This document shows positions 5,359 to 61,391 of a stretch of DNA of 64,000 nt, one piece after another (within the stretch, counting starts at the first letter, position 1; every line of letters begins with the position of its first letter). This DNA is from Protula sp. h YS-2021 (taxonomy: Eukaryota; Annelida; Polychaeta; Sabellida; Serpulidae). The notes below the pieces were generated by a model. It searched no databases and was not told where the DNA came from. It worked only from the letters and a program-made list of their open reading frames with translations. The DNA lies in assembly GCA_949752745.1 (NCBI GenBank), contig OX457027.1, positions 85,423,936 through 85,487,935 on the forward strand, read 5' to 3'. The position numbers and the translations under genes are program-made.

Positions 5359-6108
5359 ATGGGAGACATTGTGGAAGACGAACAATCTCCAGACAGACAA
5401 ATGCACAACGGCTATCTGCACGCGGACGCCGCGCGAACGTCGAGTGGCAGAGAGGAGGGCGGTGCGGCAGTGGGTATGAAGGAGACATTGGAACAGCTGC
5501 TACCCATACTGCAGCAGAAGATCACCAGCAGCACGGTGAGCGTGGCCGAAATCGAGACGCTGCTGCAGCGCTTCGACCCGGCTACGCTAGCCCCATTGAT
5601 GGAGATCCTGCAGCACTTGCAGAAACTAGGCCAAGGTGCAGGGGAACGCAGTGCCGACGCGGAAAAGAGTCTGAGCGGGCGGCATCGGGAGGAAAGTCAA
5701 AATGGCTACTTCCCTGATGGCGTGCCTCTTGGTTTTGAAAGAAATGGTGTGGGAAATCTCAGTGTGGACACCTCCCCGAGTGAGAACGCCGAAGCCAGCT
5801 ACGCCAGCCCCTGTGGCTCCTCCATGAGCAGTCCCACCATCCCACCGCGGGCAACCAACATGTCTATGAACAGTCCCACAATCCCACAGCGCTCCACCAA
5901 CATGTCGGTGAACGGTCATCATTCCAGCGACATGGCACCGTTGCGAGATCCGTATTGGCAGCCGTCGGACGGCGATACGGCGAGTATAGGGCCAAGGTCT
6001 GTGGAGAACGGGAGCGTGCAGCGAGAGTGGGGAGCAGGAAGAGAGGATATGATGGTCAGACACGAGGATATACCCGCGAATGTTTACAACCTTCACCCGA
6101 TGTCACAG
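5359..6108 (+). CDS. 2DBD-NR: 2DBD-NR exon 1 (residues 1-250, N-terminal A/B region)
   Basis: The exon encodes the N-terminal modulatory region. Residues about 40-90 form a leucine-rich helical stretch (around [15 protein letters not shown]), followed by a low-complexity Ser/Pro/Asn region with a repeated MSxNSPTIPxRxTN motif near residues 155-180. It ends in phase 0 at CACAG|GTACTG. Reading on past this donor runs into a minisatellite, so the exon end is set by the donor consensus and by phase match to exon 2. Confidence 0.85.
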
Positions 6109-9100: not shown

Positions 9101-12100
9101 ACTACTTTAAGGGCAAATCAGGGAATATTAAACACTGGATTGTGAAAAATATATAAATTCAAGTTGTTACTTTGAAAATCTCCCTAAAATTCACGTGAGG
9201 AAAGCTGTCAAAAAAACTTTTTCATTCATTTTACTTTTACTTCTTCACGGGGGATCCTGCCTTACTGAGGCTCTAGTTGCGTTGCTGTCCCAATTTCTTC
9301 AAGACGCCAACATTTATGATGAAACATATCCTTTTCCATCGCTGTTTTGTATTCCTACGATATCGGGTATCTTTGATGTAATGAAAGAATACGGCCGTGT
9401 CATTTGATTTAGCGGCTACACACATAAAAATATGACAGTTGCTGGATATTCAAGGTGAATAGATGGGACGCAACACCGATCAATTTCTACCTATTAACAA
9501 TGGATGTGTATTCATCGCAAGGTCTACGTAAGCACGCGCTCGGCGCGGCTCCCAAATGAGACGAAAGCGAGAGATTCGTAGCAAGAAACACCCCGTCTTG
9601 TTATGTGCTGCTTTTAATTCTGGTGTGATTACAGCAGACGAGCCCCGTTTTCAGACTGGGCTCCGTTTTTATGTGACGCAGGGGCCACCGACGACAGCGG
9701 ACGGACGAGTGAGCGGGGACATGTCAGAGAGCAGCCCTGGCGGGATGCCTGAGCAGCTACCAGGCAGCGTCACAATCAAAGAGGAGCCGAACGCTTCGTT
9801 TGAAGGTAAACACTTGCGGAAAATCTAATTTGAGGGTATCTAGTCACGATATTAATTAGTGTTGTAATTTTTGTCAAATATTAAGTAATGAAGTTTATTT
9901 ATAGGGATATTACAGTTCTTCCACCCTTTGTGTGTCATTTCTGAAGATTGAATTTCAAAAGTCACGTTTTCATGACACCAATTACCTTAAAAGGGTAGAT
10001 TACAAAAATATAAATACACATTGAATGAAGTTGAAAAATATTTTTCAAATTTTTTTGTTAAAAATTGAAGATGTTATTTTTTGTGAACAGTGTAATCAGT
10101 GAGCGTAATTGCGTTTTGATTTACGCTTCTGTTGACAAAATATGGAGTGTGAGGAAGACTGCGTGCTTGCTTTGATTTTTATGTTTAAAAAAGCGATTGA
10201 ATTATCAGTCATACTGTGTGTGCTTAAGAGTGGGACGTTAGCGGGGACTGGGATGCTGTAGCTGTTGAAATAAAACACACCTTTGTGATAGGACTATCAA
10301 CATTCAGAAGATGGTATTAGTAAGTTCTTAAAGTTAACTTCTTGCGCATTGGCGTGTCAGTCTATGCGTGACGTCACTAAATCGGTGCCGCATTAAACGC
10401 TATCGACAGTACAAATTCCTCACAGTTCTTGCATTACATCACATAAAAAAGAAATAAATTAGGTTAATATTTCGTAGAAATACTTGACGCATCCCGTCAT
10501 TTGCTTTTTAATGATATGTGCTAAGCCACCACACCTGTGCATTTTCTATGTGTGTAAACTGGGCTTGGCAATTTCCTCAAAGCGGTCCAAAGTGAGACCT
10601 GCTCAGAGAAAAACAAACCCTGGCGGAACTCGAGTGCCGCGCAAATACTGTTTTCTCCCACCATTTATAAGCCGTAACACGTAGATGTAAAACCTATGTA
10701 TAGGCACTATTATTTTCATCACTGTTTTTGCTTCCTTATGGGTTACATTTTTCTTGTGTTATTAGTTCTTACCTTGCCTCTTTTGATGACTATTTTTCCG
10801 AAGCACTAAAACTCGTAGGTAAAGAAGTGTGACGTAAGTTGATATTATAGGGGGTGGGGAGGGGGCATCGGGTTGCTGTTTGCCATTGATGTCATGTCAG
10901 TGTAGAAGATGAAGACGCCAACGCTGGCCCAATTATAGACAGATGGCCTGATATATTTACACAACTCTAAGCTCCTTGTTTATTGTTCCATTTTGCCTTT
11001 CTTAAACGGTGTGTTGTTTTTTAAGGGGATTGCAAAGGTAGCACCAGTCCAAAGCGTGAACGCAGCTCATATTATGGTATATGGCATGTGCGTGCCACAA
11101 AGTATGAGCTGGGCTCGTATTATGCTATATGGCATTGCGTGCCCCAAAGTATGAGTGGGGCCGTATTATGATGTGTGGCATGTGCGTGCCGCAGAGCATG
11201 AACGGGGCTCGTATTGTGCTGTATGATATGTGCGTGCCAGAGTATGAATGGGGCTCGAATTGTGTTGTGTGGCATGTGCTTGCCACAAAGTATGAACTGG
11301 GCTGGTATTGTGCTCTATGGAATGTGCATGCCACAGAGTATGAACGGGGCTCGTATTGTGCTATATGTACGTGCATGCCAGAGTATGAATGGGGCTCGAA
11401 TTGTGTTGTGTGGCATGTGCTTGCCACAAAGTATGAACTGGGCTGGTATTGTGCTCTATGGAATGTGCGTGCCACAAAGTATGAACGGGGCTCGTATTGT
11501 GCTGTATGGAATGTGCGTGCCACGGAGTATGAACGGGGCTCGTGTTATGCTGTATGGTAAGTGCGTGCCAGAGAGTATGAACGGGGCTCGTATTATGCTG
11601 TGTGGTGAGGGCGTGCAGAGAGTATGAACGGGGCTCGTATTATGCTGTATGGTAAGGGCGTGCCAGAGAGTATGAACGGGGCTCGTACTGTGTTATGATA
11701 TGTATGCCACAAAGTGTGACCTGGATGCGTTTTATTTCAAATCGCATCTGCACGTCCTGTCACATAAATTTATGTCTGGGTGATTTTTGGAACTCGAATA
11801 CTGTAGATACTTAGCAGAAAATAAAGCGCATGAGTGTGAGGGACACTTCATTTTCATACTTCATACTTGAGTGCTACATAAACAGCATAAGAAGTGCGCA
11901 AGAAGTATACAGGAAATTCATATTATTTTTGGCTTTACATTTTATCCCGGAGTTCATATGATGTTTACATGTAATTCACATGAAACCAAAATGTTTACAA
12001 TTAACTGACTCGAGTCTCGCAGATAGTACATTAAGCTCCAGTGTAACAGAACACAAGCTTCTGGTGTAATTGCAATAAAAAATAATTTTTAAAAATGTTT

Positions 12101-15100
12101 TTTGCTTGAAGATATGTGTCCTTAAGTAGCTTAAATTTGATTTTGCAAGTAAATAGAACTTAAACCACTGTTCCTGTATCTACACCTGTATTATACGGAA
12201 CCTTCAACAAGACGTTGTGTACTTAAAGCATATGCCGCATATGTTTGTTTGAATGTTTCATTTAAATATTTAAGTTTCGAATATCTAAAAAAAAATATAT
12301 ATACACTTTAGTTTCATGTGAATTATATATGAACGACATGTGAACTACCTATGAAAGTTGAAACCAATAGTAAATTGAATTTCCGATGCACTCCATATGC
12401 ACTGCCCATGTATTTCTTGCTTGCTTCTTATGTACTTCTTATGTACTACATGATGTAAGAAATTGAATTGTCCCTCCTACTCGTCCGTAAAATAACGAAT
12501 GATTTTGCCTAAGCGATCATTTCGCATGAGTAGTTTATTTTCTCAAAAACGCAGTTATGTTGTATTTTGCCATCCGGAAAACGGTTGTCACATCAAGTTT
12601 AATATTTATTCCTTACCCCCTCTACCTCCAACACTGTGTGTTCTATTTTGCCGGAATTTTCTACAAAGCATCAGTACGAAACTGAAAATAGCAAAAAATA
12701 TTGCACTCAGGATATAGTGATTGAGTGTGTTTGAGGAGTAAACATACAAAACCAAACCTCAGGTATGCCCGTCTCAAGGCGTTGATAGAATATTTGATCA
12801 AAGAAACATAGTTCAAACATGTGTTTTTAGAACTAGAAGAGAATGCGGTAGCTGGTGGTGGAATGGTGACGTTATCGGGTAGAAACCGTGGCCTGGGAAA
12901 AGCGAATGAGCCGAAGTTCGTGTGCCAGATTTGCGGAGATGTGGCGGCAGGCTTTCACTGCGGGGCTTACGTCTGCGAGGCCTGCAAGGTAATAACGCCG
13001 GAGTCAGTTATCATCTTGTCACCCAATAAACACTTACGTCACAGGATTCAGATTTATCCAGATTTTTGAGATATTCAGGTTTATGAGATATTGGGGTTTA
13101 TGAGATACTCAGATTTATGAGCTATTCAGGTTTGTGAGATATTCAGATTTATTAGATATTCATATTTGTGAGATATTCAGGTTTATGAAATATTCAGATT
13201 TGTGAGATATTCAGATTATGAGATATTCAGGTTTATGAGATATTGGGGTTTATGAGATACTCAGATTTATGAGATATTCAGGTTTGTGAGATATTCAGAG
13301 TTATTAGATATTCATATTTGTTAGATATTTAGGTTTATGAAATATTCAGATTTGTGAGATATTCAGATTATGAGATATTCAGGTTTATGAGATATTCAGT
13401 TTTATAAGATATTCAGGTTTATGAAATAGTTGTGTTTTAATTGCCAGAAGACATGACACCTGATTATATGGAAATACTATGAATGAAAGGTCTTCCTATG
13501 ACCTACTCTGAGCCGGCATTTTATGCGCAGTCGCCGTAATTGATACAAGTAGGAAGTGATTGCGTCATTTGTGAAATATCTTGAGAATGTAAACTCGCCC
13601 CTCCCCCCTTTCCCCACAATCAAACAAAAGGCGCTGTATAAATAGCGAAAACTTGTGTGACGTCATTACAATGAGGCCGCAGTATAAGTAACGACAATAT
13701 GATCAAAGCGGGTTCATTGAATGACTATTTTTGGCAAAACAAGCTATGCCTTGATCCGGTTAATGCGATTGCCTGGTATATTTAAAACGAGGCAGAACCG
13801 CAATTAATACTTAAATATATTGATTATGTCATATTTTCAAGTCAGGGGTTTTTCGTTAATATATAGCTCGAACTTGAAAATCATGCAAAAAAGTGACCCT
13901 TCCATGAAGCAGACATCTGTTTGTGGGACACACGACATACATGAGTCATAACCGTTGTTTTATGGCAAAAGGAAGGGTCATGCGTAATGCAGGAAAGAGA
14001 GCTTTGTTAGAACATCACTGGCACTGGTGTAAATAACACTCTGTAGTTGAACTAAGATTATGTCATGCAAGTAAGAATTCACATATTTTTGTTATTTGCT
14101 TAACAAGGCATTGAAGTCAAAGTCTGTTCCGGAATAGACTAACGTCGCTTACGTACAATTCAAATTCTGTGTTTCGCTATATATTTGATTATCCCCCGTA
14201 AAACGGAGGGATATAGTTTTGAACTTTTCGGTCTGTCCGTCTGTCTGTCCGTCTGTCACGCTTCAGTCTCACGCGCCTACAGTCCACATTAATGCATGGA
14301 TTCGGTTCAAATTTTGTACGCGGCTTCTCTGGAACCTTCCCCAGTGCAGTGACCAAGAATTTTCCGGATCGACCAAAAATTGACAAAATGGCGGACTTTT
14401 GAAAATCGGCACTGGACTTAGCGTATATACGGCAGTCTCACGCGTCTACAGGCCACATTAATAGACGGATTTGTTTCAAATTTTGCACACGGCTTCTCTG
14501 GAACGTTCCGCAGTGCAGTGACCATGAATTTTCCGGATCGACCAAAAATTGACAAAATGGCGGACTTTTGAAAATTGGCACTTGACTATATACATACGGC
14601 AGTCTCACGCGTCTACAGGCCACATTAATAGACGGATTTGTTTCAAATTTTGCACACGGCTTCTCTAGAACGTTCCGCAGTGCAGTGACCATGAATTTTC
14701 CGGATCGACCAAAAATTGACAAAATGGCGGACTTTTGAAAATTGGCACTGGACTTTATATATACCGCAGTCTCACGCGTCTACAGGCCACATTAATAGAC
14801 AAATTCGTTTCAAATTTTGTACACGGCTTCTCTGGAACCTTCCACAGTGCAGTGACCAAGAATTTTCCGGATCGACCAAAAGTTGACAAAATGACGGACT
14901 TTTGAAAATCGGCACTGGACTTAGCGTATATACAGCAGTCTCACGCGTCTACAGGCCACATTAAGAGACGAATTCGTTTCAAATTTTGTACACTGCTTCT
15001 CTGGAACCTACCGCAGTGCAGTGACCAAGAATTTTCCGGATCGACCAAAAATTGACAAAATGGCGGACTTTTGAAAATTGGCACTTGACTATATATATAC

Positions 15101-21100: not shown

Positions 21101-24100
21101 CGGCGAGCGCATGAAGGAATTCGTCAAGCATGCAGAGTCGGCCCAAGCCGTGCTGGGATTGCGGTTGGACACGAGTGACACTCTTCGCCGGTCCTCGCCA
21201 CCGCCCAGCACCAGGGTCAATGAGAACCTGAGCGTAGGAACGGGTTCTCTGAACAGCTCCAAGTTGCAATTGTGTAGCCCCAAGGCTTTCGTAGCTAAGG
21301 ACCAGCTCGAACTGCGAGAGAGAGCTTCTGTCGGTTCAACGCTCATGAAAAAGCGGCATTTGTTTTCTCATGAATTTAGAAGGACAAACTTGCCGATAGA
21401 TTACAGACTGCCGGACGTAGTCGTGTATTCACCCGAGCGTAAAGTGGTAACGGCGGAAAGACACGAGGACGAAAGTGATGCGTTCAACTCACCAGAAGTG
21501 GAAAGGAATCTGAGTGGTAAGATCACGAATTGAAAAAAGGTTTGAAGCTTTGGAGAAAACTTTCTCTCAGCATTTTTAAGAAAACGTGTAGTGCCCAAGA
21601 CTAAATCATGGCCTGGAATACGCATTGTGAATATACGCACCTTTGCATAAACTGATATTTTAAAATAAGCAATTCTGATTGATCACCGATCTCAGATTTT
21701 ATTTTAATTTTATTTAAATGTCTTCGGTATCGCTGAATTTTAGGGCATAATTTTAAACCCAACACTGGGCTTTGTTAACGGAATAACTCTAGAACGACAA
21801 CTCGGATCATCTTCAGACTTGGTCGGATCATTCTTCGGATGGGTCCGGTGGTTGCTATTGTTTTCGTATTGGACTACGCGTGACGTCATATGACTTCAAA
21901 ACCTGATATTACGTTAAAATGCGTCATCACTGTAACTGTAGAACGAAATGTCGGGTCAGCTTCAAACTTTGTAGGATGATGCCTGGACGGGTTCGACGAT
22001 TCTTATTGTTGTTGGCTCATACAACGCAACGCATGACGATGTATGAGCCATGAGACGTAGGGAGGGGATAGACGGTACCTTTGTTAACCGGAGTTCCAGT
22101 TATCGCGGTAGTTATTGATCCGCTTCTGGGGGGATGCCTTTTATTGTTAATTGACAAATAAATATTAAATTGCTACCCCCCCCCCCTCCCGCTCCACCCT
22201 CCCTCACCAAAGTTGTTTTCCCTTGGCTGGTAAGCTGTTTTGGCACCAAACTCTCCCCTCCCATCCCCCCACCCATTCTCCACGGAGGTGAGTCATTTAT
22301 TAAAGAAGCTGCCGAATGTACGAGGACAAGGGTATCATGGATGCAAGTACACTTTGGGTGCCCATGTCGTGAAAGGGGGTAAAAAGGTTTAGAGTTGCGT
22401 TCAGAGCCGTACCTGCATTAGATGGCGTTGGGGGGAGGGAGGTGGGGGTATGACGGTAAGCAGAAAAAAATATCAATAAAGTAGGGGATCGGCGATGTAG
22501 CGACAGACAAGAAGACGTAAACTAAAACCTGCCTGTCTGTGACCACTTCAAAGACCCGGACAAAACATATACAGTAAAACCTCTGTGGTGACTACCTTCC
22601 AGACCTGGATAAAAGGCTTACAGTCAAACCTGTGTGCACCGACCACATTCTAGACCCAGAACCTGGATGAAAGGTTGTGCACATAAGATATTTATTCACA
22701 TATATTTATATGAGGTAAAAGTCTTATAATTCTGAAATAGTACAAAATTGTCAGAATAAAACTGTGCAAACTGAAGGAGGTGCAATTGATGGAAAAGGAA
22801 GGGGGGTGGGGGCGTCGAGGGACAAATTTTGTTTTTGTTTACAAAAACAAAACAGCAATAGATGGCTATAAAGCCGTTTGGCATGTTCGGCACATTGATG
22901 TTGCTGTGCACCCGCCGCTCTAGTTTTACATTTCGACCGTAAAATTGTCTGAATGAATGCGCATTTGACCACACTCTTTGTGAGTTGTAGAAAACCCCAT
23001 TTAAGAATAAATCTTCCCATTGCTAAAAAGGAAATTGTCAGTGAGACGGATCTAAAATTGTCAATGTGGCGGATCTAAAATTGTCAGTGTGGCGGATCGA
23101 AAATTGTCAATGTGGCGGATCTAAAATTGTCAGTGTGGCGGATCGAAAATTGTCACTGTGGCGGATCTGAAATTGTCAGTGTGACGAATCTAAAACTGTC
23201 GGTGTGGCGGATCTGAAATTGTCAGTGTGACGAATCTAAAATTGTCGGTGTGGCCAATCTAAAATTGTCAGTGTGGCGGATCTGAAATTGTCAGTGTGGG
23301 AGATCTAAAATTGCCAGTGTGGCGAATCTAGAATTTTGTTTCCCTGTTATGTAAAGGGACTTTTTTCTTTTTGCTTGAAGCTACAAAATATTTCAATTAA
23401 TACAATGTTCTTTAGTCGCATGAACGATCCTGTATTTCTGTAGTAAGTATCGCATTATAAACCCAACATCGCACACTATTACCGACGCTCTCCGCTGTTA
23501 AAAATACTCTTTCTTGAATATGTTGTGATTCTGAAAAGCGCATTAAGAATAAGATAACTTCAGAAATGGCTCTCGTTTCGGAAAAGCACATGGCAGAAGT
23601 GAGCTGAGCACTGCTACTGATAGTTCCCTTCCTCTGCCTCTTTGGCAGTGGGCAAAATTTTAATCAGTAATATTATAGGCAGTAACAGAAGGCAATCAAT
23701 TTAGTTCATTACAAAAAAAAAAAAAACAGTGGTATAACTTCAGACGAGCTAAGAGCGTGCTGTGTTGGCAGAGGAGCACCCGGGGAGTGAATCGGCGGGG
23801 AGTCGCGGTGGGTTTGACTGGTGCCAGTTGGACGACGCGCGCTTTATGTGCTGCCGCGTGATGGAAGCGTATAAGGAGCTGGAGAACCTGAATCGTCCGC
23901 GGGCGGCGCTCAACGAGGCGCAGAGCTGCTCGACGGAGAAGGAGCGTGCCTGGTACGCCGCCTACGAGAGCTTCGTACACCATGCCAAGTATACGCTGCG
24001 CTTTGTCAAGAAGATTCCTGGTACGTTACCCCCGAGCAACACCGAACACCTCTGTTCCTCCCACCCCACACCCCCCGCCCCGAAGCCATGCCAAGTACAC

Positions 24101-27100
24101 GCTGCGCTTTGTCAAGAAGATTCCTGGTACGTTACCCCCGAGCAACGCCGAACACCTCTGTTCCTCCCACCCCACACCCCCCGCCCCGAAGCCATGCCAA
24201 GTACACGCTGCGCTTTGTCAAGAAGATTCCTGGTACGTTACCCCCGAGCAACGCCGAACACCTCTGTTCCTCCCACCCCAGACCCCCCGCCCCGAAGCCA
24301 TGCCAAGTACACGCTGCGCTTTGTCAAGAAGATTCCTGGTACGTTACCCCGACCAATGTCGAACACCTCTGTTCCTCCCACCCCACACCTCCCGCCCCGC
24401 AGCTATGCCAAGCACACGCTGCGCTTTGTCAAGAAGATTCCTGGTACGTTACCCCGACCAATGTCGAACACCTCTGTTCCTCCCACCCCACACCCCCCGC
24501 CCCGAAGCCATGCCAAGTACACGCTGCGCTTTGTCAAGAAGATTCCTGGTACGTTACCCCCGACCAACGCCGAACACCTCTGTTCCTCCCACCCCAAACC
24601 CCCCGCTCCGCTGCCATGCCAAGTACATGCTGCGCTTTGTCAAGAAGATTCCTGGTTCGTTACCCCCGAGCAACGCCGAACACCTCTGTTCCTCCCACCC
24701 CACACCCCCCGCCCCGCAGCCACGCCAAGCCCACGATGCGCTTTGTCAAGAAGATTCCTGGTACGTTACCCCCGACCACCACCGAAGACCTCTGTTGCTC
24801 CCACCCCACACCCCCCGCCCCGCAGCCATGCCAAGTACACGCTGCGCTTTGTCAAGAAGATTCCTGGTACGTTACCCCCGACCAACACCTAACACCTCTG
24901 TTCCTCCCACCCCACACCCCCCGCCCCGAAGCCATGCCAAGCACACGATGCGCTTTGTCAAAGTAGATCCCAGGTATGTTCCTATTACCAGCTCCCATGA
25001 CCTCTTCACGCCAAACACACACGTCAGATAGACGGAAGAATGCGCCATTCCCCCAAGTTCCTCCACCCACAGAAAAAATTACCCCGTTATAATGTCAAAT
25101 AAGGTAAAATGAAACTTTTTCCGTTGAGGAGGTGGTGGGGGGGGGGGGGAGGAGGCGCTGTGCACGGTAAAGGATCAGAAAACTTCTGTACTACGGTAGT
25201 TATTTCCCCATGGAAGAGCAACTATCATCGGCGTTCCGCCCGCCAAGAACCTGGTGCGGCTCGAGGTCCTGTTGAGGAATAAAAGCAAACTAGCAGACCT
25301 GCAGCGCTAATAATTATCCGCCGGGAACCGGACGGATATAGTTTTCATTCTGTCCGTCTGTCCGTCCGTCTGTCCGTCTGTGCAATTTCAGTCTCACGCG
25401 CCTACAGCCCGCATTAGTGGGTGGATTGATTTCAGATTTTACCCAGGGGTGCTCCTAAGCATCCCGCAGTGCAGTAACCAGGATTCGACTGTATCCGACT
25501 AAAATTGTCAAAATGACAAAACTTAAAAAAATGGAAGAAATGAATTAGGAATGAGCATAACACATATCGGTCTCACGCGCCTACATGCCGCATAAGTGGG
25601 TGGATTGATTTAATATTTTACCCATGGCTGCTCCTAAGCATCCCGCAGTGCAGTGACCAGGATTCGACCGGATCCGAGCACAATTGTCAAAATGAAAAAA
25701 CTTTAAAATTTGAAGAAACTGAATTAGGAATGAGCTTTACACATACCGGTCTCACGCGCCTACAGCCCGCATTAGAGGTTGGATTGATTTAAGATTTTAC
25801 CAAGGGCTGCTCCTAAGCAGAACCGGACGGATATAGTTTTCATTCTGTCCGTCCGTCTGTCCGTCTGTGCAATTTCAGTCTCACGCGCCTACAGCCCGCA
25901 TTAGTGGGTGGATTGATTTCAGATTTTACCCAGGGGTGTTCCTAAGCATCCCGCAGTGCAGTGACCAGGATTCGACGGGATCGGAGCAAAATTGCCAAAA
26001 TGGCAAAACTTTAAAAAATTGCAAAAACTGAATAAGGACTTTGCATAACACACATCAGTCTCACGTGCCTACAGCCCGCATTAGTGGGTGGATTGATTTA
26101 AGATTTTACCCATGGCTGCTCCTAAGCATCCCGCAGTGCAGTGGCCAGGATTCGACCGGATCCGAGCAAAATTGTCAAAATGACAAAACTTAAAAAAATG
26201 GAAGAAATGAATTAGGAATGAGCATAACACATATCGGTCTCGCGCGCCTACAGGCCGCATTAGTTAGTGGATTGATTTAATATTTTACCCATGGCTGTTC
26301 CTAAGCATCCCGCAGTGCAGTGACCAGGATTCGACCGGTAAACAAGTTCTGTAAATATCTTCGGGAACTTCTCGTCCAACTACCATTGAAAAGAACAATC
26401 GTGCTTGGTGAATTCAACATAAACATTTCACAGAAGCAGTCGCCATTACTAGATCTTATGAATTCATTTCATCTTCTGCCAACCTCGTTTGAAGCAACAA
26501 TGCCATCTGGTCGATGTATCGATATTATCTTCACACCAAATCAACCATGTACCACTGGCTCTACAAACCTCTACTTCACTGACCACAAGGCTGTATGGTG
26601 TTCTTTGGAACAGTTGTTCACAGGAACATCATAATCAGGTATACAATTTGCGCGAACCCGGCGGATTCATGCTTCTCGAGCATCTAGTTGTGGCAGTCGA
26701 TCTCTTGCTTATTCAGCTAGTCTGTCTAATCCAAAGTAGTCAGTCGACGAAAAAGAAAAGAGTAAACAATGTTACAGTTTTCATAGAAACGGCATAACTA
26801 TTGTGATGCGAGGAAGTCAGTTGTCTGCCTACGGCGACGGCTTGTAAATGATGAGAGGCGTGTTTCCATGGTGATAACAAGGCGGATTGTTACTGGTCGG
26901 GGTGGTGATACCTCGGTGGGTGTCACTGAGCGGTGTGTTGACATGTTACTTCGCTGATAGGCGTGTTTCCCGGGTGATAACGGGAGCCACGTAGCTGATC
27001 GGCGTGTTACCATGGTGAGAACGGGGGTACGTAGCTGATCGGCGTGTTACCATGGTGACAGCGGGGGACACGTAGCTGATCGGCGTGTTGCTGTGGTGAT

Positions 27101-30100
27101 AGCAGGCGTCAGGGTTGTTTACTGTGCAGGCTTCAAGCAGCTGCCCATGGAGGACCAGGTGACGCTGGTGCGCGAGGCGGTCTACCCAATCACGCTGCTC
27201 TTCCACTCTCAGTTCTTCGACCCCAGTGCTAAGAGACAGAGGTAAAAATTAGTTTTTGGTTCCGGTAGTTGTTTGTTTTACCTGCTGTTATTTTGTAGCA
27301 ACAGGGTAAATTTTATCCACGAATTCTGTCTTAAAACGCCGGGAGGAATAGTCCCATAATTTATTCCCCACAGGGAGAGGGATATATGCGATCGGCCGCG
27401 TGTCGGTTTGTCGGTCTCATCAACAGCTTGTTAATGCGATAACTTAAAAACTGCTGCAAGGATTTTAATGAAACTTGGTATGTAGCTTCTATGGGAACAA
27501 ACACAGATCAGTAGTGTAAATGGACCAGGTTCGTCAAAGGAAAATGGACCAGTTGGACTTTGAATTTACCAAATCCTGAAAATTATTCTGCTTCGAAATG
27601 GGTTTGTTAACACGATATCTCAAGAACAACTGCAGCGATTTTAATGAAACTTGGTATGTAGCTTCTGTGGGAACAAACACAGATCAGTATTGTAAATGGG
27701 CTAGGGTCGTCCAAGGAAAATGGACCAACTGGACTTAGAAAATTTCAGCTCTTGATTGATTATTGATGGCCGTGTTTAACTGATGGGGGACCTGTGGGGA
27801 ATATGTGGGCTATGCACACTGCTCTAGTCGTTTGTGTTACAGTAGTGTTAGCTGTTGCTTGTGTTATCAGTCTAGCTGTTTGTGTTACCTGCTGTTACTT
27901 TGTAGCGACAGGGTAAATTTTATCCACGAATTCTGTCTTAAAACGCCTGGAGGAATAATCGCATAATTTCTCATTAGTGCCCGCTATGCTCAGTGGTGAT
28001 AGAAGCTCCGGGCTGGTTACGCCACTGTTCTGAGTAAAACACAGCCGTTTTTCAGTATGCGAAGTAGCGGAATATACTTTTACAACTGATTTAACTTTAT
28101 CTCAAGCAAACGAAATGGTGCAAGAAGTTGTCGCAGATGAAGGGATGGATCCGTCTCGCGATCCGATCCGAGGTGGGGGATTGGATGGGATAAAAACATC
28201 CAAAATTACGTTATTTGTGGTGAAGAGAGAGAGAGGAGTGGGAAAACTAAAGCCAAAGTAGCGCCATTCCCCCCGGGGGGTGGGGGAGGGCATATGACTG
28301 CATTACTTGGAACGATTTGATTGGCGCAGGTGGTTTTACGATTTGATTGGTGCAGGTGGTTTTACGATTTGATTGGCGCAGGTGGTTTTACGATTTGATT
28401 GGTGCAGGTGGTTTTACGATTTGATTGGTGCAGGTGGTTTTACGATTTGATTGGCGTAGGTGGTTTTGCAACACGGACGAAGAGCGGGAGAAGATCTGGT
28501 ACTACTTCCCCAAGTTCAAGGAGCTGAACGGACACATCGTGTACAGCGGCATGTTGTTCAGCGAGCTGCGCGTCACGGCCGACGAGTACGCCTTCCTCTG
28601 TGCCCTCATGGTCTTCTCTACAGGCATGTATGCGTCACCACCTGGCACACAGCCAAGTACGCTCTTTTCTTCACTCTAAACTCATTTTCCAACATACACC
28701 CCACCCCCTCAAAACGGAGGGGGGGGGGAGTTTTAAGACCAGCTGACTTCATCGGGCCGGTCTTATCACATCGGTGGGGGGGGGGGGGGGGGGGTGGGGG
28801 AGCAGCCGTCGTCTGTATGTACGTGTGTACATATGTACGTATGTAAATTTTCCTTAAGTGCTTTTTCTCCCTAAGTTTTGATCGGATTCCTTTGAAATTT
28901 TGTACGAATGTTCTCTAGGTAGGCCTCTCTTGAAAAATTACTTTTATAAGTTTCGGCATTTATAGGTTTTGGTTGCCAATGTTTAATTTTTTTGTGAGCC
29001 ATTTAGTCGTATCACTATAGGGGGCTTGAATGTATGTGCTTATGTTTAAACTTTTTCTTTAACATATTTTTAAACTTTTTCTTTAGAATGCTACTCCTCC
29101 TGCAGTTTTGTTCCAATCGTTTTGACATTACGCAGGAATGTTCCTGGGTGGTCCCCCACCTGGCTATTTCTTTTTTGACGAATGACGAAAAACTGACAAA
29201 ATGGCGACACTTTTTGTGCGCGTTTTGGCCCATTTTTAAAATGCTACTCCTTGTACAGTTTTACTCAATCATTTAGATGTTACGGAGGGATGTTCCCCAG
29301 CGGTTTACCTACCAGGCTAGTATTTTTTCACGGTTCACTTTTTTCGCAAATGACCAAAAAGTGCCTGAAATGATGGAATTGTGACGTGAATCGTCAAAAC
29401 TCAACCTCTCCAACATCCCTTTTCGGGTAGCTTCCACCCGTGAAAATTCGTTTTTGTGTATTAGAATCATTTTTGGCTTAACAGTATTCGATTCAGAGTT
29501 TTTCTCTCTTTCCTTGTTTGATAACTCGGCTGGGTCATTCCTTGGACATGCTTGTTATTTTTTTTGGCAGTGGCAGTTTGGCAGTGTACGCAAGGATATT
29601 GATGTCGTCGTATTGTCTTGACAGTTTGATTAGAGGCAGCAGACATAGTACCTGCGTGGATAGCAGTTTTTTTTTTTTTGTTTTTTTTTTTTTTTTTTGC
29701 TAATAAGCAGTTTTTTGGCGATTCGCCGAAAATTAGCGGAAATACTGACCATAAACCATTTTTGTATTAAAATCTTTACCGACGCAAGGTACTAAAATTT
29801 ACTGTCTTGAAATTATGGTAGTCACAGATCCTGACATCACTATTCGTGAGTTGGGGCGTTATCCATGGACAATCTTTTTTTTTTTTTTTGTGCACCACCA
29901 AAAATAGTTCTCTTGCCGCCGTTTTATAGTTTTAGGGGTCAAATTTTTTTAAATAGTTCTTCCAGGTAATTTTAGTCAGATGGCTTTCATTTTTTCAGGC
30001 GTAGTCCAACGCCGAGGATTCTTTGAAATTTACTTTTTCTGAGATGCCCCTGGAGATTAACTAAATGCCGGGCTTTGAAAAATGTTCAGCTTTTATAATG

Positions 30101-32893
30101 CTGCTACCACTTCTTGGCGACCCAATAAACCTATTGGTACTTGAGTCACTAGATCTGGGCTGGTCACAATGTCCCGGGACATTCTTTTTTTTAAATGTTG
30201 CGTTTGAAGCGATAAAAACGCTTTCTCTAACAAACCTACTCGGTATTTCACCTGCGTCATTGTGTTTCTTGACTGGCAGTTAGTGTGCATTTCTTCTTCT
30301 CCCTGATTCGAAGCTTGCTATTGACAATGTGCTACGAGTTCTCAATGTGTGACACTGACCCTTCTTTCTTTCTCTCCCTCCTGTCCCCTCAATTTTTCTT
30401 GAATATAAAAAAATTCTTGTAAAATTGTTTGTATAATTTAGCTGAATCAGCTGATTTCTCTTTCGCGGTGTGCATGTAACTGTACAGTTAGCTTGTGTGA
30501 ATACAAAGGTTGGTGAGTACAAGAGTGGGTCATTTCTTGAAAAATCACTTATTTGACCTTTCGCCTAAAATGAGTCAATTGGCGGCATTTTGAATCTTTT
30601 GTGAGGCGTTTTCCAAAATGGGTTGCCTGCTGCATTTAGATTCGATTTAATCTAAGTTTTAGAGTTATAATGTTCATGTAATATTTTTTTAAAATGCTAC
30701 CACCTTTTAGGCTGTTCTTAAAATGCTACTACCACTTTTTGGCGGCCCTACAAGCCTTTGATACTTGATTCACTAGATCTCGGCTTCTCACGATGTCTCT
30801 GGACATTCTTGGTTTTCTTTCGGCATCCAGATAAATATATGATGTGTTTATAGATGCCTTTATGGTGAAAGACAACGAGAAAATAAAGAGGATACTGGAC
30901 AGCATATCGCACGCCATGATCAGCTACTTTGAAGGCAAGTGCTTGACTGCCGTGTAGATAACGTGTAGATAACGTGTAGATAACGTGTAATGCTTGTGAG
31001 AAGTTAGTGCAAGTGAGTCGACTGCAGTAGCCACTGTGAAGGGTGGGCGATAATTGCGAAGGTTTTCACGACGCCCATTGTTCAGTCGGCTGCACACACT
31101 ACAGACTGCTGTGTTAAAGATTTTCTGGGTGGATTTTTTTCTGACTTGAATAGAAAAGAATAGAATTAAGGAAGAAAAATAATCGAAAGGCGGTTACCTT
31201 AGCGGCAGTCAGCATATCTGTATAAAAACTTGAACAATGAAAAAATGAAAGGAAAAAACTAAATTAAAAGGGGAAAAAATATGAATTGTAAATCCCACGT
31301 ATTTTGCAGTACCTGTATTTGTTGTAGCAAAAACAAAAAATGCCAAAAAAAACGATGTTTTTATAATTTCGGGATGATAGTGCGATGACTGAGGATGGTT
31401 GAAAATGAAGTGGTAGTGGTTGAGGATGATGGGGCGATGATTGAGGATGATGGGGCGATGATTGAGGATGATTGGGCAGTGATTGAGGATGATGGGCGAT
31501 GATTGAGGATGATGGGGCAGTGATTGAAGATGATGGGGCGATGATTGAGGATGATGGGGCGATGATTGAGGATGATGGGGCGATGATTGAGGATGATGGG
31601 GCGATGATTGAGGATGATGGGTGATGATTTAGGATGATGGGGCGATGATTGAGGATGATGGGTGATGATTGAGGATGACGGGATAGTGGTTGAGGATGAT
31701 TGAGGATGATGGGGCGATGATTGAGGATGATGGGGCAGTGATTGAGGATGATGGGCGATGATTGAGGTTGATGGGGCAGTGATTGAAGATGATGGGGCGA
31801 TGATTGAGGATGATGGGGCGATGATTGAGGATGATGGGGCGATGATTGAGGATGATGGGGCGATGATTGAGGATGATGGGGCAGTGATTGAGGATGATGG
31901 GGCGATGATTGAGGATGATTGAAGATGATGGGGCGATGATTGAGGATGATGGGGCGATGATTGAGGATGATGGGGCGATGATTGAGGATGATGGGTGATG
32001 ATTGAAGATGATGGGATAGTGGTTGAGGATGATTGAGGATGATGGGGCGATGATTGAGGATGATGGGGCAGTGATTGAGGATGATGGGCGATGATTGAGG
32101 TTGATGGGGCAGTGATTGAGGATGATGGGGCGATGATTGAGGATGATGGGACAGTGACTGTGGATGATGAGCGTTGATTGAGGATGATTGAGGATGATGG
32201 GTGGTAATTGAGGATGATGGGGCGAGGATTGAGGATGATTGAGGATGATGGGTGGGAATTGAGGATGATGGGGCAATGATTGAGGATGATGGGACAGTGA
32301 CTGTGGATGATGGGCGTTGATTGAGGATGATTGAGGATGATGGGTGGTAATTGAGGATGATGAGGCGATGATTGAGGATGATTGAGGATGATGGGTGGTA
32401 ATTGAGGATGACGGAGCGATAGTTGAGGATGATTGAGGATGATGGGACAATGACTGTGGATGATGGGGCGATGATTGAGGATGATTGAGGATGATGGGGC
32501 AGTGGTTGAGTATGATTGAGGATGATGGGGCGACGATTGAGGATGATGGAGCGATGATTGAGGATGATTGAGGATGATGGGGCGATGATTGAGGATGATG
32601 GGGCGACGATTGAGGATGATGGGGCGATGATTGAGGATGATGGGGCGATGATTGAGGATGATTGAGGATGATGGGGCGATGATTGAGGATGATGGGGCGA
32701 TTGATCGGGATGCTTGTATTTGGCTACAGAGACGGGTCGGGATCCTAACCGCGCGGGGACGCTGATACTCCGCCTGTCAGAGCTCAAGCGTGCCAACTAC
32801 GAGCACACACAGATCGCCATGCAGGTGCAGAGGGAGAACCCCGACATTGACTTCTCGCAGCTCTGGCACGAAATGTTCCTCTACAAGACCTGA
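5359..32893 (+). CDS. 2DBD-NR: nuclear receptor with two DNA-binding domains (2DBD-NR), 13 coding exons
   Basis: This is a ligand-type transcription factor expected to bind DNA in the nucleus. Joining 5359-6108, 9682-9805, 12831-12988, 16253-16400, 17086-17198, 17767-17914, 19417-19547, 20034-21516, 23772-24020, 27130-27241, 28460-28623, 30854-30934 and 32730-32893 gives 3825 nt and 1274 residues, with every junction phase matching. DBD1 has zinc cysteines C323, C326, C340, C343 and C361, C367, C377, C380, with P-box CEACKK. DBD2 has C410, C413, C427, C430 and C448, C454, C464, C467, with P-box CEGCKG. The ligand-binding domain spans about 1033-1274, with the helix 3-5 signature at 1096-1115 and AF-2 core LWHEMF at 1265-1270. 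The tandem DBDs and this P-box pair define the known 2DBD-NR family of flatworms, molluscs and Daphnia. Introns 11 and 12 need GC donors. The start ATG has a good context (A at -3, G at +4). No polyadenylation site was identified. Confidence 0.93.
6103..7015. repeat. 18-bp minisatellite starting at the exon 1 donor, split by a hAT MITE
   Basis: Units of about 18 bp resembling TGTCACAGGTACTGCCTC run from 6103 to 6481 and continue from 6876 to about 7015. The first unit is the exon 1 end plus its donor (GTCACAG|GTACTG), so later copies carry donor-like sites. A 394-bp transposon lies between the two blocks. Confidence 0.85.
6482..6875. mobile_element. hAT-type non-autonomous element (MITE), 394 bp
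   Basis: The element starts TAGTGATGTGA and ends TCACATCACTA, an exact 11-bp terminal inverted repeat. Both flanks carry the 8-bp sequence GTCACAGG (6474-6481 and 6876-6883). An 8-bp target duplication and TAGTG-type ends fit the hAT superfamily. There is no coding capacity. The interior contains 'GGTTCGGTTT'-like inverted motifs. Confidence 0.85.
7016..7485. other. intron 1 sequence, nothing recognised
   Basis: I see no gene or clear repeat in this part of intron 1. Confidence 0.3.
7486..7840. repeat. dispersed repeat, family D head and 145-bp body units
   Basis: The start resembles 'TATCCCCTGTGAAACGGAGG' followed by a CCGTCCGTCTGTCC run. The same head precedes arrays at 14189 and 25313. 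Two body units share 'TTTTGTCCGGCCGACTTCT' at about 7573 and 7753. Confidence 0.6.
7846..8880 (+). pseudogene. non-LTR retrotransposon endonuclease (EEP) fragment, interrupted by a transposon
   Basis: Residues encoded at about 7846-7945 (RCIDAIFTN ... DLYFT) and at 8845-8880 ([10 protein letters not shown]) match the end of an endonuclease/exonuclease/phosphatase domain. A similar but uninterrupted stretch lies at 26338-26632 ([10 protein letters not shown] ... [10 protein letters not shown]). An 891-bp hairpin element splits this copy between the threonine and the aspartate of FTDHK. This is a dead fragment with no reverse transcriptase nearby. Confidence 0.7.
7946..8836. mobile_element. foldback/TIR element, 891 bp, with 8-bp target duplication
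   Basis: The ends are inverted repeats of about 135 bp, rich in CCTACG (left from GGTAACTGCCCATTTGTCC; right end reads CAAATGGGCCGTCATC). They are flanked by CTTCACTG at 7938-7945 and 8837-8844. Removing the element and one duplication restores the reading frame of the surrounding endonuclease fragment. The interior is AT-rich without a transposase. The 8-bp duplication suggests mobilisation by a hAT-like transposase. Confidence 0.85.
8881..9681. other. 3' part of intron 1, nothing recognised
   Basis: I see no repeat family or gene. The intron ends in a modest pyrimidine stretch and GACGCAG at 9675-9681. Confidence 0.4.
9682..9805 (+). CDS. 2DBD-NR: 2DBD-NR exon 2 (residues 251-291)
   Basis: This 124-nt exon starts in phase 0 and ends in phase 1 at GAAG|GTAAAC. 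It encodes Ser/Pro/Gly-rich A/B-domain sequence with VTIKEEP at residues 280-286. That contains a psi-K-x-E sumoylation-type motif (IKEE 282-285) of the kind found in many nuclear receptors. The acceptor at 9681 is chosen by phase; an AG at 9634 would break the frame. Confidence 0.75.
9806..11049. other. 5' part of intron 2, nothing recognised
   Basis: This is AT-rich intron sequence without a clear repeat, RNA or exon. Confidence 0.4.
11050..11715. repeat. about 45-50 bp minisatellite in intron 2
   Basis: About 14 units share GTATGAACGGGGCTCGTAT and 'GTGCGTGCCACAAA'. Open frames on both strands here are repeat artefacts, with short C/M/Y-rich periodic translations. Confidence 0.85.
11716..12830. 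other. 3' part of intron 2, nothing recognised
   Basis: This is AT-rich intron DNA with some repeated 'TTCATATGATG'-like words. The intron ends GTGTTTTTAG at 12821-12830. Confidence 0.4.
12831..12988 (+). CDS. 2DBD-NR: 2DBD-NR exon 3: first zinc finger of DBD1 (residues 292-344)
   Basis: The exon starts in phase 1 and ends in phase 0 at TGCAAG|GTAATA. It carries C-x2-C-x13-C-x2-C (C323, C326, C340, C343) and ends within the P-box, CEACK|K. The alanine in CEACKK is unusual among nuclear receptors and is characteristic of the first DBD of 2DBD receptors. Confidence 0.95.
13060..13435. repeat. 17-bp minisatellite in intron 3
   Basis: About 22 degenerate units of TTTATGAGATATTCAGG lie shortly downstream of exon 3. 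A roughly 150-bp higher-order duplication is apparent, because the order of unit variants repeats. Confidence 0.85.
13436..14188. other. intron 3 sequence, nothing recognised
   Basis: I see no gene or clear repeat apart from a CCGGAATAGACTAACGT phrase near 14128 that resembles phrases near 38090 and 38390. Confidence 0.35.
14189..15565. repeat. about 165-bp tandem repeat, family D
   Basis: The array starts with the head CCCCCGTAAAACGGAGGG and a GTCTGTCC run. Eight units of about 165 bp follow, each with CAGTCTCACGCGTCTACAG, GCAGTGCAGTGACCAAGAAT and 'GACAAAATGGCGGAC'. Units 2-8 are very similar, so the array expanded recently. Minus-strand open frames of 94 residues here are repeat artefacts. 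Confidence 0.9.
15566..16252. other. 3' part of intron 3, nothing recognised
   Basis: I see no gene. The intron ends TTTATGTTTCAG at 16241-16252. Confidence 0.4.
16253..16400 (+). CDS. 2DBD-NR: 2DBD-NR exon 4: second zinc finger of DBD1 (residues 345-393)
   Basis: This 148-nt exon is phase 0 at the start and phase 1 at the end (CCAG|GTATTG). It begins KFYLRCLK and carries C-x5-C-x9-C-x2-C (C361, C367, C377, C380), then [10 protein letters not shown]. Its length and phases equal those of exon 6. Confidence 0.95.
16401..17085. other. intron 4
   Basis: This is a 685-bp intron with no repeat or RNA recognised. It ends GTTTCGCAG. Confidence 0.5.
17086..17198 (+). CDS. 2DBD-NR: 2DBD-NR exon 5: first zinc finger of DBD2 (residues 394-431)
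   Basis: The exon starts in phase 1 and ends in phase 0 at TGCAAG|GTAAAA. It supplies a 16-residue linker from DBD1, then C410, C413, C427, C430. It ends inside P-box CEGCK|G, the P-box usual in receptors that bind AGGTCA half-sites. Confidence 0.95.
17199..17766. other. intron 5
   Basis: This 568-bp intron begins with a C/T-rich tract at 17205-17285. No other feature was recognised. Confidence 0.5.
17767..17914 (+). CDS. 2DBD-NR: 2DBD-NR exon 6: second zinc finger of DBD2 (residues 432-480)
   Basis: This 148-nt exon, phase 0 to phase 1, begins [15 protein letters not shown]. It carries C448, C454, C464, C467, then [10 protein letters not shown], a canonical end of a nuclear-receptor DBD. 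The donor is CAAG|GTAACA. Confidence 0.95.
18075..18340. repeat. two direct repeats of about 122 bp in intron 6
   Basis: Two units share 'CTAGGACGACCAAATTT', 'GGAGACATA' and 'AAATAGACATTGAAATTT'-type segments. Confidence 0.65.
18595..19160. repeat. about 140-bp tandem repeat in intron 6
   Basis: Four degenerate units contain TATCTCGAAAACGGTTAGAG, 'TTATTTTCGACCCTTTGGG' and 'ACCTCGGTGACC'. No coding function is visible. Confidence 0.75.
19417..19547 (+). CDS. 2DBD-NR: 2DBD-NR exon 7: C-terminal extension/hinge start (residues 481-524)
   Basis: The exon encodes the basic segment just after DBD2 ([13 protein letters not shown], residues 481-493). This resembles the C-terminal extension of receptor DBDs, including the LGRQSN/LGRMSN-like motif. 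It runs from phase 1 to phase 0, with donor CCAAG|GTAACC. Confidence 0.9.
19548..19690. repeat. about 30-33 bp short tandem repeat after exon 7
   Basis: Four units of the type CAGCTGTTAGAGCACACCTC lie directly downstream of the exon 7 donor in intron 7. Confidence 0.7.
20034..21516 (+). CDS. 2DBD-NR: 2DBD-NR exon 8: long hinge (residues 525-1018)
   Basis: This 1483-nt exon, phase 0 to phase 1, encodes nearly 500 residues rich in Ser, Asp, Glu, Pro and Gly. No folded domain is recognised, so it is probably disordered. It has a second sumoylation-like motif, LKSEP, at residues 538-542. Most nuclear-receptor hinges are tens of residues long, so this is very long. The open frame continues only 17 nt past the donor AGTG|GTAAGA before a stop, which supports the exon end. 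Confidence 0.9.
21770..22085. repeat. dispersed repeat family A copy
   Basis: Phrases such as 'AGAACGACAACTCGGATCA', 'CGTGACGTCATATG' and 'TCAGCTTCAAACTTTGT' match the copy at 33940-34440. Confidence 0.6.
22086..22995. repeat. dispersed repeat family B copy
   Basis: It contains C-rich sequence (22173-22200), 'AAAACCTGCCTGTCTGTGACCACTT'-type units (22510-22680) and a GTTTTTGTTTACAAAAACAA palindrome (22830-22850). The order matches 34480-36100. Confidence 0.6.
23030..23340. repeat. 22-bp minisatellite in intron 8
   Basis: About 14 units of AAATTGTCAGTGTGGCGGAT with single-base variants (GATCT, GATCG, GAATCT). Confidence 0.9.
23772..24020 (+). CDS. 2DBD-NR: 2DBD-NR exon 9: start of ligand-binding domain, helices 1-3 (residues 1019-1101)
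   Basis: The exon begins after TTGGCAG in phase 1 and ends in phase 1 at ATTCCTG|GTACGT. It encodes the LBD start (FDWCQLDD, 1033 on) through helix 3 ([10 protein letters not shown], ending 1101). The last 40 nt and the donor are copied nine more times downstream, so the donor used cannot be settled by eye. The first donor joins to exon 10 with a perfect LBD signature. Confidence 0.9.
23981..25005. repeat. 106-bp minisatellite: ten copies of exon 9 end plus donor plus intron start
   Basis: Copies begin at about 23981, 24087, 24193, 24299, 24404, 24509, 24615, 24721, 24827 and 24933. Each contains about 40 bp of coding sequence (AAGTACACGCTGCGCTTTGT ... ATTCCTG), the donor GTACGT, and a C-rich intronic part. 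The last copy has diverged. Because 106 is not a multiple of three, a continuous reading frame cycles through three frames, which creates three long artefact open frames. Confidence 0.95.
25313..26337. repeat. dispersed/tandem repeat, family D variant
   Basis: The head 'GGAACCGGACGGATATAGTT' plus CCGTCTGTCC runs occurs at about 25325 and again at about 25820. About six units of 170-180 bp follow with 'CAGTCTCACGCGCCTACAGC', 'GTGGGTGGATTGATTT' and 'CATCCCGCAGTGCAGTGACC'. They are related to the array at 14189-15565. Confidence 0.85.
26338..26632 (+). pseudogene. non-LTR retrotransposon endonuclease (EEP) domain fragment
   Basis: The encoded segment includes [12 protein letters not shown] (the conserved GDFN-like motif, here GEFN), [10 protein letters not shown] and FTDHKAVW. 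These match the C-terminal part of the EEP endonuclease of LINE-type elements. It starts abruptly at the end of the family D repeat and has no reverse transcriptase downstream, so it is a fragment in intron 9 of the receptor gene. It resembles the broken copy at 7846-8880. Confidence 0.75.
26855..27115. repeat. about 40-bp minisatellite before exon 10
   Basis: Five to seven units of the type GCTGATCGGCGTGTTACCATGGTGA run to within about 15 bp of the exon 10 acceptor at 27129. Confidence 0.8.
27130..27241 (+). CDS. 2DBD-NR: 2DBD-NR exon 10: LBD helices 3-5 (residues 1102-1138)
   Basis: It encodes [20 protein letters not shown], which with the end of exon 9 forms the nuclear-receptor LBD signature (F..KxxPGFxxLxxxDQxxLL type). 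It starts in phase 1 and ends in phase 2 at CAGAG|GTAAAA. Confidence 0.93.
27290..27970. repeat. direct repeats in intron 10
   Basis: A 65-bp segment at about 27297-27361 (ACAGGGTAAATTTTATCCAC ...) recurs at 27905-27968. Between them are a family D-like head (about 27362) and two units of about 145 bp sharing ATTTTAATGAAACTTGGTAT. Confidence 0.7.
28309..28469. repeat. 26-bp minisatellite carrying the exon 11 acceptor
   Basis: Six units place AG at 28329, 28355, 28381, 28407, 28433 and 28459, each followed by GTGGTTTT. The last unit is the true acceptor and first bases of exon 11 (CGTAG|GTGGTTTTGC). The unit is GTGGTTTTACGATTTGATTG plus GCGCAG or GTGCAG. Confidence 0.93.
28460..28623 (+). CDS. 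2DBD-NR: 2DBD-NR exon 11: LBD helices 5-8 (residues 1139-1193)
   Basis: It encodes [19 protein letters not shown] through [10 protein letters not shown]. It starts in phase 2. To stay in frame with exon 12 it must end at CTACAG|GCATGT, a GC donor. The nearby GT at 28628 gives a stop in exon 12. The joined product FSTD at the helix 7/8 boundary matches the conserved FS/N-x-D of nuclear receptors. Confidence 0.9.
28685..28802. repeat. C-rich and G-rich homopolymer tracts
   Basis: A G run of about 18-20 lies at 28777-28801, after a shorter G run at 28720-28728. These are potential G-quadruplex-forming tracts in intron 11, and their length may be inexact in the assembly. Confidence 0.6.
28850..29700. 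repeat. dispersed repeat, family C copy
   Basis: It matches 3800-4560, including CGTATCACTATAGGGGGCTT at about 29008 and the GCTACTCCTCCTGCAGTTTT phrase. It ends in T runs near 29669-29699. Confidence 0.65.
29701..30853. other. 3' part of intron 11
   Basis: A segment near 30095-30200 and one near 30715-30830 are diverged direct copies ('TGCTACCACTT', 'ACTAGATCT', 'GGACATTCTT'). Nothing else was recognised. The intron ends GTGTTTATAG. Confidence 0.45.
30854..30934 (+). CDS. 2DBD-NR: 2DBD-NR exon 12: LBD helix 9 region (residues 1194-1220)
   Basis: This 81-nt exon encodes [20 protein letters not shown] and on to SYFE. It is phase 1 at both ends. The donor is GAAG|GCAAGT, an exact GC-donor consensus. 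The alternative GT at 30939 would lead to a stop six codons into exon 13. It is followed by four short GTAGATAACGT repeats. Confidence 0.88.
31385..32706. repeat. 21-bp minisatellite, about 60 units, in intron 12
   Basis: Units of GATGATGGGGCGATGATTGAG with 'GATTGAGGATGATT' variants fill 1.3 kb and stop about 23 bp before the exon 13 acceptor AG. Long minus-strand frames (SSIIAP and HHPQ repeats, up to 510 residues) are artefacts of the array. Confidence 0.95.
32730..32893 (+). CDS. 2DBD-NR: 2DBD-NR exon 13: LBD helices 10-12 with AF-2, stop codon
   Basis: It encodes [20 protein letters not shown] (helix 10/11 dimerisation region) and [13 protein letters not shown], ending with TGA at 32891-32893. 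LWHEMF is a canonical AF-2 coactivator-binding helix, so ligand- or coactivator-dependent activation should be possible. The acceptor is GGCTACAG. Confidence 0.95.
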
Positions 32894-53237: not shown

Positions 53238-53531
53238 CAACCTGGAGGATACGGTGACCGGACGTCCTGAGGCAGACGTCAACCTTCACGTCACGCATGG
53301 GAGGACACGCTGACCGGACGTCCTGAGGCAGACGTCAACCTTCACGTCACGCATGGGAGGACACGGTAACCGGACGTCCTGAGGCAGACGTCAACCTTCA
53401 CGTCACGCAAGGGAGGACACGCTGACCGGACGTCCTGAGGCAGACGTCAACCTTCACGTCACGCATGGGAGGACACGGTAACCGGACGTCCTGAGGGAGA
53501 CGTCAACCTTCAGGTCACGCATGGGAGGACA
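53238..53531. repeat. 56-bp minisatellite including the PCIF1 stop codon
   Basis: Five to six units of ACCGGACGTCCTGAGGCAGA plus 'CGTCAACCTTCACGTCACGCATGGGAGGACACG'. The right-most unit, read on the minus strand, is the last codons of PCIF1 (VSSHA) and its TGA. The terminal coding bases and stop are therefore copied downstream in the 3' region. Confidence 0.9.
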
Positions 53532-53677
53532 CGGGCGATGAGTGGCTTTCCCGCACCAAGAAGGCGAGCTTGAGTTCTCGTATCCTCTCGGGCGTTGGCG
53601 CCCAGCGCGAGAATCCCGCGTCGTTCTGCAGAAACACGACCAATGTGCCATGCCCTGCCCGTATGTTCACGTCCTTA
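53515..53677 (-). CDS. PCIF1: PCIF1 terminal coding exon
   Basis: The acceptor TTGTGTGTTGTAG precedes T-AAG-GAC. The exon encodes [38 protein letters not shown] and a short tail [13 protein letters not shown], with TGA at 53517-53515. The acceptor is fixed by phase, and an AG 4 nt later would break the frame. The tail is shorter than the Ser-rich human C-terminus. Confidence 0.92.
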
Positions 53678-61389: not shown

Positions 61390-61391
61390 CA
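60361..61391 (+). repeat. first unit of the 1030-bp tandem duplication (transposon 3' end)
   Basis: This unit runs from TGACCCACCACCCATGAGCC inside the transposase gene through its stop, the 3' region with CTGTTTTTTTTTTATTCC tracts, and the right inverted repeat. It is followed directly by the next copy. Confidence 0.93.

Follow-up and report, generated by a model that had tools for sequence, protein, structure and literature searches.

A predicted annelid nuclear receptor of the two-DNA-binding-domain group A, encoded by a gene with a tandem repeat across one of its splice junctions

Nuclear receptors as a rule carry one DNA-binding domain (DBD), a rule that the receptors with two tandem domains (2DBD-NRs) break. 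According to the survey of Wu and LoVerde (2023, PMC10497141), 2DBD-NRs occur in several spiralian phyla, nematodes, echinoderms and amphioxus. Group A (2DBD-NRA) is marked there by the P-P module EACKK-EGCKG and the G-box RXGRQ(P/S), with a histidine at the fifth position after the G-box in most, not all, members, an ancestral mark that some subgroups do not have. Group B (2DBD-NRB), which also has annelid members, carries the P-boxes LPCKS-EGCKK or EACKS-EGCKG and the G-box KXGR, and the two DBDs lie 17–22 residues apart in most members of groups A and B (PMC10497141). As reported in the available portion of the Schistosoma mansoni study (PMC1810520), Sm2DBD-alpha homodimerises and binds neither RXR1 nor RXR2. 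The comparison of 2DBD-NRs with Daphnia traces to the abstract of the 2007 paper, and the survey from 2023 never uses the name Daphnia in its main text.

The window, that is, the whole 64-kb stretch of annelid DNA analyzed here, contains a gene with this architecture. We rebuilt it independently from splice sites, reading frames and codon score as 13 exons on the + strand, in a single frame from 5359 to 32893 (Table 1), and the resulting coding sequence of 3825 nt specifies 1274 residues and one stop codon, with all exon phases consistent. The thirteen exons and 1274 codons of the initial annotation were thereby recovered, with the same codon count and coordinates. Exons 2 and 9 were located by scoring phase-compatible candidates within their introns. 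For exon 2, the scores fell to 17.0 and 8.5 for two variants with the same donor as the top candidate, and an unrelated candidate reached 6.9 at most. For exon 9, position 23772 is the start of each of the three highest-scoring candidates, and they are distinguished solely by the copy of a repeated donor at which they end; we adopted the first donor because the resulting length aligns with relatives. Ten introns are of the GT-AG type, while introns 11 and 12 are GC-AG, with the donors CAG/GCATGT (28623/28624) and AAG/GCAAGT (30934/30935), respectively; two GC donors within one gene are unusual. There may be an additional 5' exon, although an in-frame stop lies just 5' of the open reading frame that holds the start codon. 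Within exon 1, positions 5824–5917 form a 42-bp coding repeat.

Table 1. Exons of the predicted receptor gene and junction-associated repeats in the window
Feature	Position	Strand	Description
Exon 1	5359..6108	+	A/B domain, first ATG of its ORF; donor CAG/GTACTG; ORF of 312 codons, in phase
18-bp array, degenerate	6101..6483	+	contains exon 1 donor
Exon 2	9682..9805	+	A/B domain, 41 aa; candidate score 20.1
Exon 3	12831..12988	+	zinc finger 1 of DBD1 (ends ...CEACK)
Exon 4	16253..16400	+	zinc finger 2 of DBD1 (starts KFYLRC...)
Exon 5	17086..17198	+	inter-DBD linker and zinc finger 1 of DBD2 (ends ...CEGCK)
Exon 6	17767..17914	+	zinc finger 2 of DBD2 (starts GFFRR...)
Exon 7	19417..19547	+	C-terminal extension with G-box RLGRQS
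Exon 8	20034..21516	+	long hinge, 494 aa; open frame of 500 codons, in phase
Exon 9	23772..24020	+	start of ligand-binding domain (LBD) to end of helix 3
106-bp minisatellite	23980..24980	+	exon 9/intron 9 junction; 9.5 copies by TRF
Exon 10	27130..27241	+	LBD signature region
26-bp array, six copies	28312..28467	+	contains exon 11 acceptor
Exon 11	28460..28623	+	LBD; GC donor
Exon 12	30854..30934	+	LBD; GC donor AAG/GCAAGT
Exon 13	32730..32893	+	LBD end, AF-2 core LWHEMF, stop codon
PCIF1 junction array	54383-56454	-	19 copies of one exon end and donor, about 113 bp per unit

Homologues back exons 3–7 and 9–13. Exons 3–7, with the DBDs, the linker and the G-box, align without a gap to one relative (P0002) and with a single one-residue gap to another (P0001). 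Among the 208 proteins fetched for comparison, exons 10–13 together match 135, exon 9 matches nine (best P0007, 6e-6) and the start of exon 3 matches three. Exons 1, 2 and 8, taken singly, gave zero matches among these 208 proteins, and exon 2 together with the start of exon 3 gave one weak joint alignment (P0002, E 0.001). These three exons rest on frames and splice sites; open frames as long as those of exons 1 and 8 arose in 0 of 1000 dinucleotide shuffles of the surrounding sequence, made for each of these two exons. The N-terminus is the least certain part of the model because neither exon 1 nor exon 2 has a homologue match of its own.

Pfam identified zf-C4 over two stretches of the predicted protein (2.9e-43) and Hormone_recep once (4.3e-14), and none of the 16 zinc cysteines is missing, each DBD reading C-X2-C-X13-C-X2-C and then C-X5-C-X9-C-X2-C, which bears out the earlier description of two full C4-C4 DBDs followed by an LBD. 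The P-boxes are CEACKK in DBD1 and CEGCKG in DBD2. The spacing between the DBDs, first given as 16 residues, had to be corrected: from M390, which closes DBD1, to C410, the first cysteine of DBD2, the linker counts 19 residues (cysteine to cysteine, 29), a length inside the published range of 17–22. The G-box reads RLGRQS, with an arginine as fifth residue after it, and the AF-2 core near the C-terminus is LWHEMF. Seven of the nine specified positions of the LBD signature Ti agree with the consensus in PMC10497141, and by sequence the predicted LBD is nearest to FXR (3.2e-13).

The fold was examined on P0002, which is 70% identical over the DBDs. The AlphaFold run, with 37 relatives, describes this relative and not the window protein; its pLDDT blocks range over 80–96 in DBD1, 60–74 in the linker, 91–96 in DBD2 and 81–97 in the LBD, and lie below 50 in the A/B domain and hinge. 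The modeled LBD is helical with its last helix present, and Foldseek placed it nearest to LXR-beta, with a TM score to target of 0.73–0.81 in rows 2–8. By way of this model, confident over both DBD1 and DBD2, the earlier proposal that both domains could fold gains support.

The predicted protein has the P-P module of 2DBD-NRA, the 19-residue linker, the G-box and the AF-2 core in helix 12; in place of the histidine fifth after the G-box, it has an arginine, as do P0001 and P0002. These two proteins are also the closest among the matches listed (best 120 of 601), with the Paralvinella palmiformis protein P0001 at 74% and P0002 at 70% identity over the DBDs. No row named Capitella or Helobdella, the annelids whose proteins (Capitella A2, Helobdella A2 and A3) would serve to place the receptor in the annelid subgroup A2 or A3, stands in the best 120 of 601 or the best 120 of 169 matches, some rows of which are nameless. 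A G-box was readable in 92 of the 208 fetched proteins, and RLGRQS followed by arginine at the fifth position was found only in P0001 and P0002 (0 of the 90 others).

The initial annotation had proposed a phylogeny as a check. A tree of both DBDs, computed for the window protein and 43 chosen from the 208 fetched proteins (44 two-DBD proteins, including four echinoderm group B rows and no annelid B or nematode C), places the predicted protein in the 2DBD-NRA group. It forms a clade with P0001 and P0002 (100/100, stem 0.73) inside a group of 29 rows (100/99) of annelid, mollusc, nemertean, flatworm and bryozoan proteins; 19 of the 41 inner forks of the tree are open. P0007 of Owenia stands apart from this clade; it is probably 2DBD-NRA1, the one Owenia protein that the survey lists in group A (PMC10497141). 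Compared with the two domains of the 43 relatives, DBD2 of the window protein scores better against DBD2 than against DBD1 in all 43, and DBD1 better against DBD1 in 39 (not better in four); the tandem was therefore inherited, with no recent duplication inside the gene.

P-P module, linker length, G-box, LBD and the 44-protein tree thus all agree with 2DBD-NRA, so that the 2DBD-NR membership proposed at the outset stands. We conclude with high confidence that the window holds an intact gene for a receptor with two tandem DBDs, belonging to 2DBD-NRA and, within it, sharing with Paralvinella and P0002 a subgroup separate from Owenia P0007. The family was already known, and the receptor is a new member of ordinary design. 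That it could instead belong to group B or be of the nematode type (2DBD-NRC) deserves mention, as annelids have group B members and the tree contains neither annelid B nor nematode C rows; yet the gene reads EACKK-EGCKG and RLGRQS rather than the P-boxes and G-box of group B, and in the tree it falls into the group that holds the A proteins of molluscs, nemerteans and flatworms, at a large distance from the four rows of echinoderm B proteins, so that such an assignment is almost certainly wrong.

Two other readings concern the integrity of the gene. The introns between its exons reach 3.6 kb, and an exon predictor might have fused two adjacent receptor genes, or a DBD-only gene and its DBD-LBD neighbor. 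Against this, a gap of only 685 bases separates exons 4 and 5, whose phases match, a linker motif is common to the window protein, P0001 and P0002, and the order DBD1-linker-DBD2-G-box-LBD occurs within one protein in P0001, P0002, P0003 and Owenia P0007, which makes a fusion of this kind highly improbable. P0002, a single protein of 1080 aa that has DBD1, DBD2 and the LBD, comes from a 4231-base contig for which a spliced transcript is the simplest reading. The idea that the gene is a 2DBD receptor copy in decay or without function would fit the two non-canonical donors, the three splice junctions inside arrays and the long stem of the clade, but 1274 codons run without a stop or frameshift, the 16 zinc cysteines and the AF-2 core are intact, and the window protein has an end branch of 0.14, compared with longer ones in P0001 (0.21) and P0002 (0.35). 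We regard decay as very unlikely, and retain the intact 2DBD-NRA gene as the reading of this locus.

The fetched relatives also extend the distribution of this architecture. Called from Pfam domains and the P-box pattern, two DBDs with an LBD were found among them in the hemichordate Ptychodera (CEACKK/CEGCKG in P0057 and P0059, CEACKR/CEGCKG in P0083), the bryozoan Bugula (P0143), two acanthocephalans (P0070 and P0131) and a chiton (P0006). P0143 and P0083 sit on long branches, and we are unsure of their position in the tree. A protein from a second bryozoan, Watersipora (P0139), showed one DBD only by pattern and was therefore left uncounted. The strings Hemichordat, Bryozoa and Acanthocephal have 0 occurrences in the main text of PMC10497141, and among the literature matches listed we noticed no paper dealing with hemichordate, bryozoan or acanthocephalan 2DBD receptors. 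The earlier characterization as a small invertebrate family is a little narrow, given the phyla of the survey together with a hemichordate, a bryozoan and acanthocephalans.

Several splice junctions in the window lie within tandem repeats. In amphioxus, tandem copies that extend across an exon–intron boundary, in units comprising a coding part and a splice site, have been termed mirages, and RT-PCR suggested that splicing was undisturbed, according to the part of that report available (PMC3087553). Two donors in the window have this organization, that of exon 9 (nine copies) and one in a PCIF1 gene (19 copies); among the literature matches listed, we noticed no paper on mirages in annelids. 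The 106-bp unit at exon 9 consists of the 3' end of the exon, the donor and the start of intron 9, and eight of the nine junction copies keep the donor GTACGT. Five of these eight donors are in frame with exon 10 and stop-free, giving exon lengths of 249, 567, 672, 777 and 1095 bases; the predicted products of the other three stop inside exon 10. The second gene was identified by its match to the solved PCIF1 structure 6irv (6.7e-32). The donor GTCAGT is kept in 17 of its 19 copies, donor and acceptor (near 53.67 kb) are both in phase 2, and the four residues arising from their join would fill a four-residue gap in the alignment to 6irv. A 56-bp array also covers the likely C-terminal end of PCIF1 (53244–53534, - strand).

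We asked how often junctions and arrays coincide by placing the 20 intronic arrays randomly within their own introns (5000 draws per setting). An array is found 20 bp or less from seven of 24 junctions, compared with a random mean of 0.53 when arrays were kept outside exons (no draw as high) and of 1.53 when they were allowed 41 bp into exons (P 0.0004); three of 24 lie inside arrays, compared with a mean of 0.97 when overlap was allowed (P 0.064). A count of near copies speaks against enrichment, so that the two tests disagree: at least two near copies within 3 kb were found for two of 24 junction 20-mers and one of 24 junction 30-mers, compared with 22% and 21%, respectively, at random positions of the gene and 0.5% and 0.1% at exon-internal positions. 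As the enrichment tests were chosen after the pattern had been seen, we limit our claim to the existence of the mirages and make none about enrichment.

Elsewhere in the window, a retroelement-like integrase piece (Integrase_H2C2, 3.7e-7) precedes ORFs of 191 codons that recur every ∼1030 bases (59364–64000). Among the other ORFs compared with Pfam (10 scanned of 350), only PCIF1_WW and Integrase_H2C2 exceeded curated cut-offs, and tRNA and Rfam scans of the 64-kb window found nothing.

A bolder and unlikely reading takes up both the receptor clade and the exon 9 array: the window gene, its Paralvinella relative and P0002 would represent an undescribed annelid paralogue of 2DBD-NRA with a changed DNA-reading extension, in which the exon 9 mirage acts as a splicing switch. 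The outcome would depend on which of the eight donors is used. One donor would give the normal receptor of 1274 aa, and four would lengthen it where LBD helix 3 ends, by 106, 141, 176 or 282 residues; the remaining three would shift the frame, so that the product retains DBD1 and DBD2 but terminates within exon 10 and is missing most of the LBD. If this were true, individuals with arrays of different length would differ in how much ligand-responsive receptor they make relative to the LBD-less kind.

For the normal receptor, we consider most likely a mode of action in which the LBD would homodimerise, giving a dimer with four DBDs that might all take part in DNA binding. DBD2 with its G-box extension could be the main reader, recognizing an extended half-site, while DBD1, with its own P-box, could act as a second reader of an adjacent element, kept near by the 19-residue linker. 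The intact AF-2 helix would then recruit co-activators, probably under the control of a ligand. The half-site step is unproven, because gel shifts showed no binding of AGGTCA repeats by the schistosome DBDs, whether singly or in combination, as stated in the accessible part of PMC1810520.

An annelid member with a distinct G-box enlarges by one the set of sequences that can be compared, and work on a free-living annelid may prove easier than on parasitic flatworms. The wider distribution of the family and the mirage arrays are by-products more unexpected than the receptor itself, and mirages in two genes of one 64-kb annelid window may matter more than the receptor, as they allow models in which tandem repeats underlie intron gain and the choice of splice site to be tested beyond the chordates.

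Among named systems, 2DBD-NRA as described in PMC10497141 is the nearest, sharing with the window protein the tandem C4 DBDs with CEACKK/CEGCKG, a 19-aa linker, the motif RXGRQ(P/S), one LBD with AF-2 and a long A/B domain. The window protein differs in the arginine fifth after the G-box, where most members have histidine, in a 494-aa hinge exon that matches none of the 208 fetched proteins, and in a DBD1 that reads FY instead of FF after CEACKK, a variant also seen in P0001, P0002, some bivalves and Bugula. The Paralvinella palmiformis protein LSH36_323g02024 (P0001; Annelida, Terebellida) resembles it over the DBDs (74%), in the G-box region RLGRQS-NS(M/V)KR and in the linker motif, whereas identity over the whole length is 32% and the A/B domain and hinge have no significant match. 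The Schistosoma mansoni receptors 2DBD-alpha, -beta and -gamma, as far as described in the portion of PMC1810520 at hand, are alike in domain order and in their very large hinge, but belong to other subgroups of group A and are 1523–1816 aa long.
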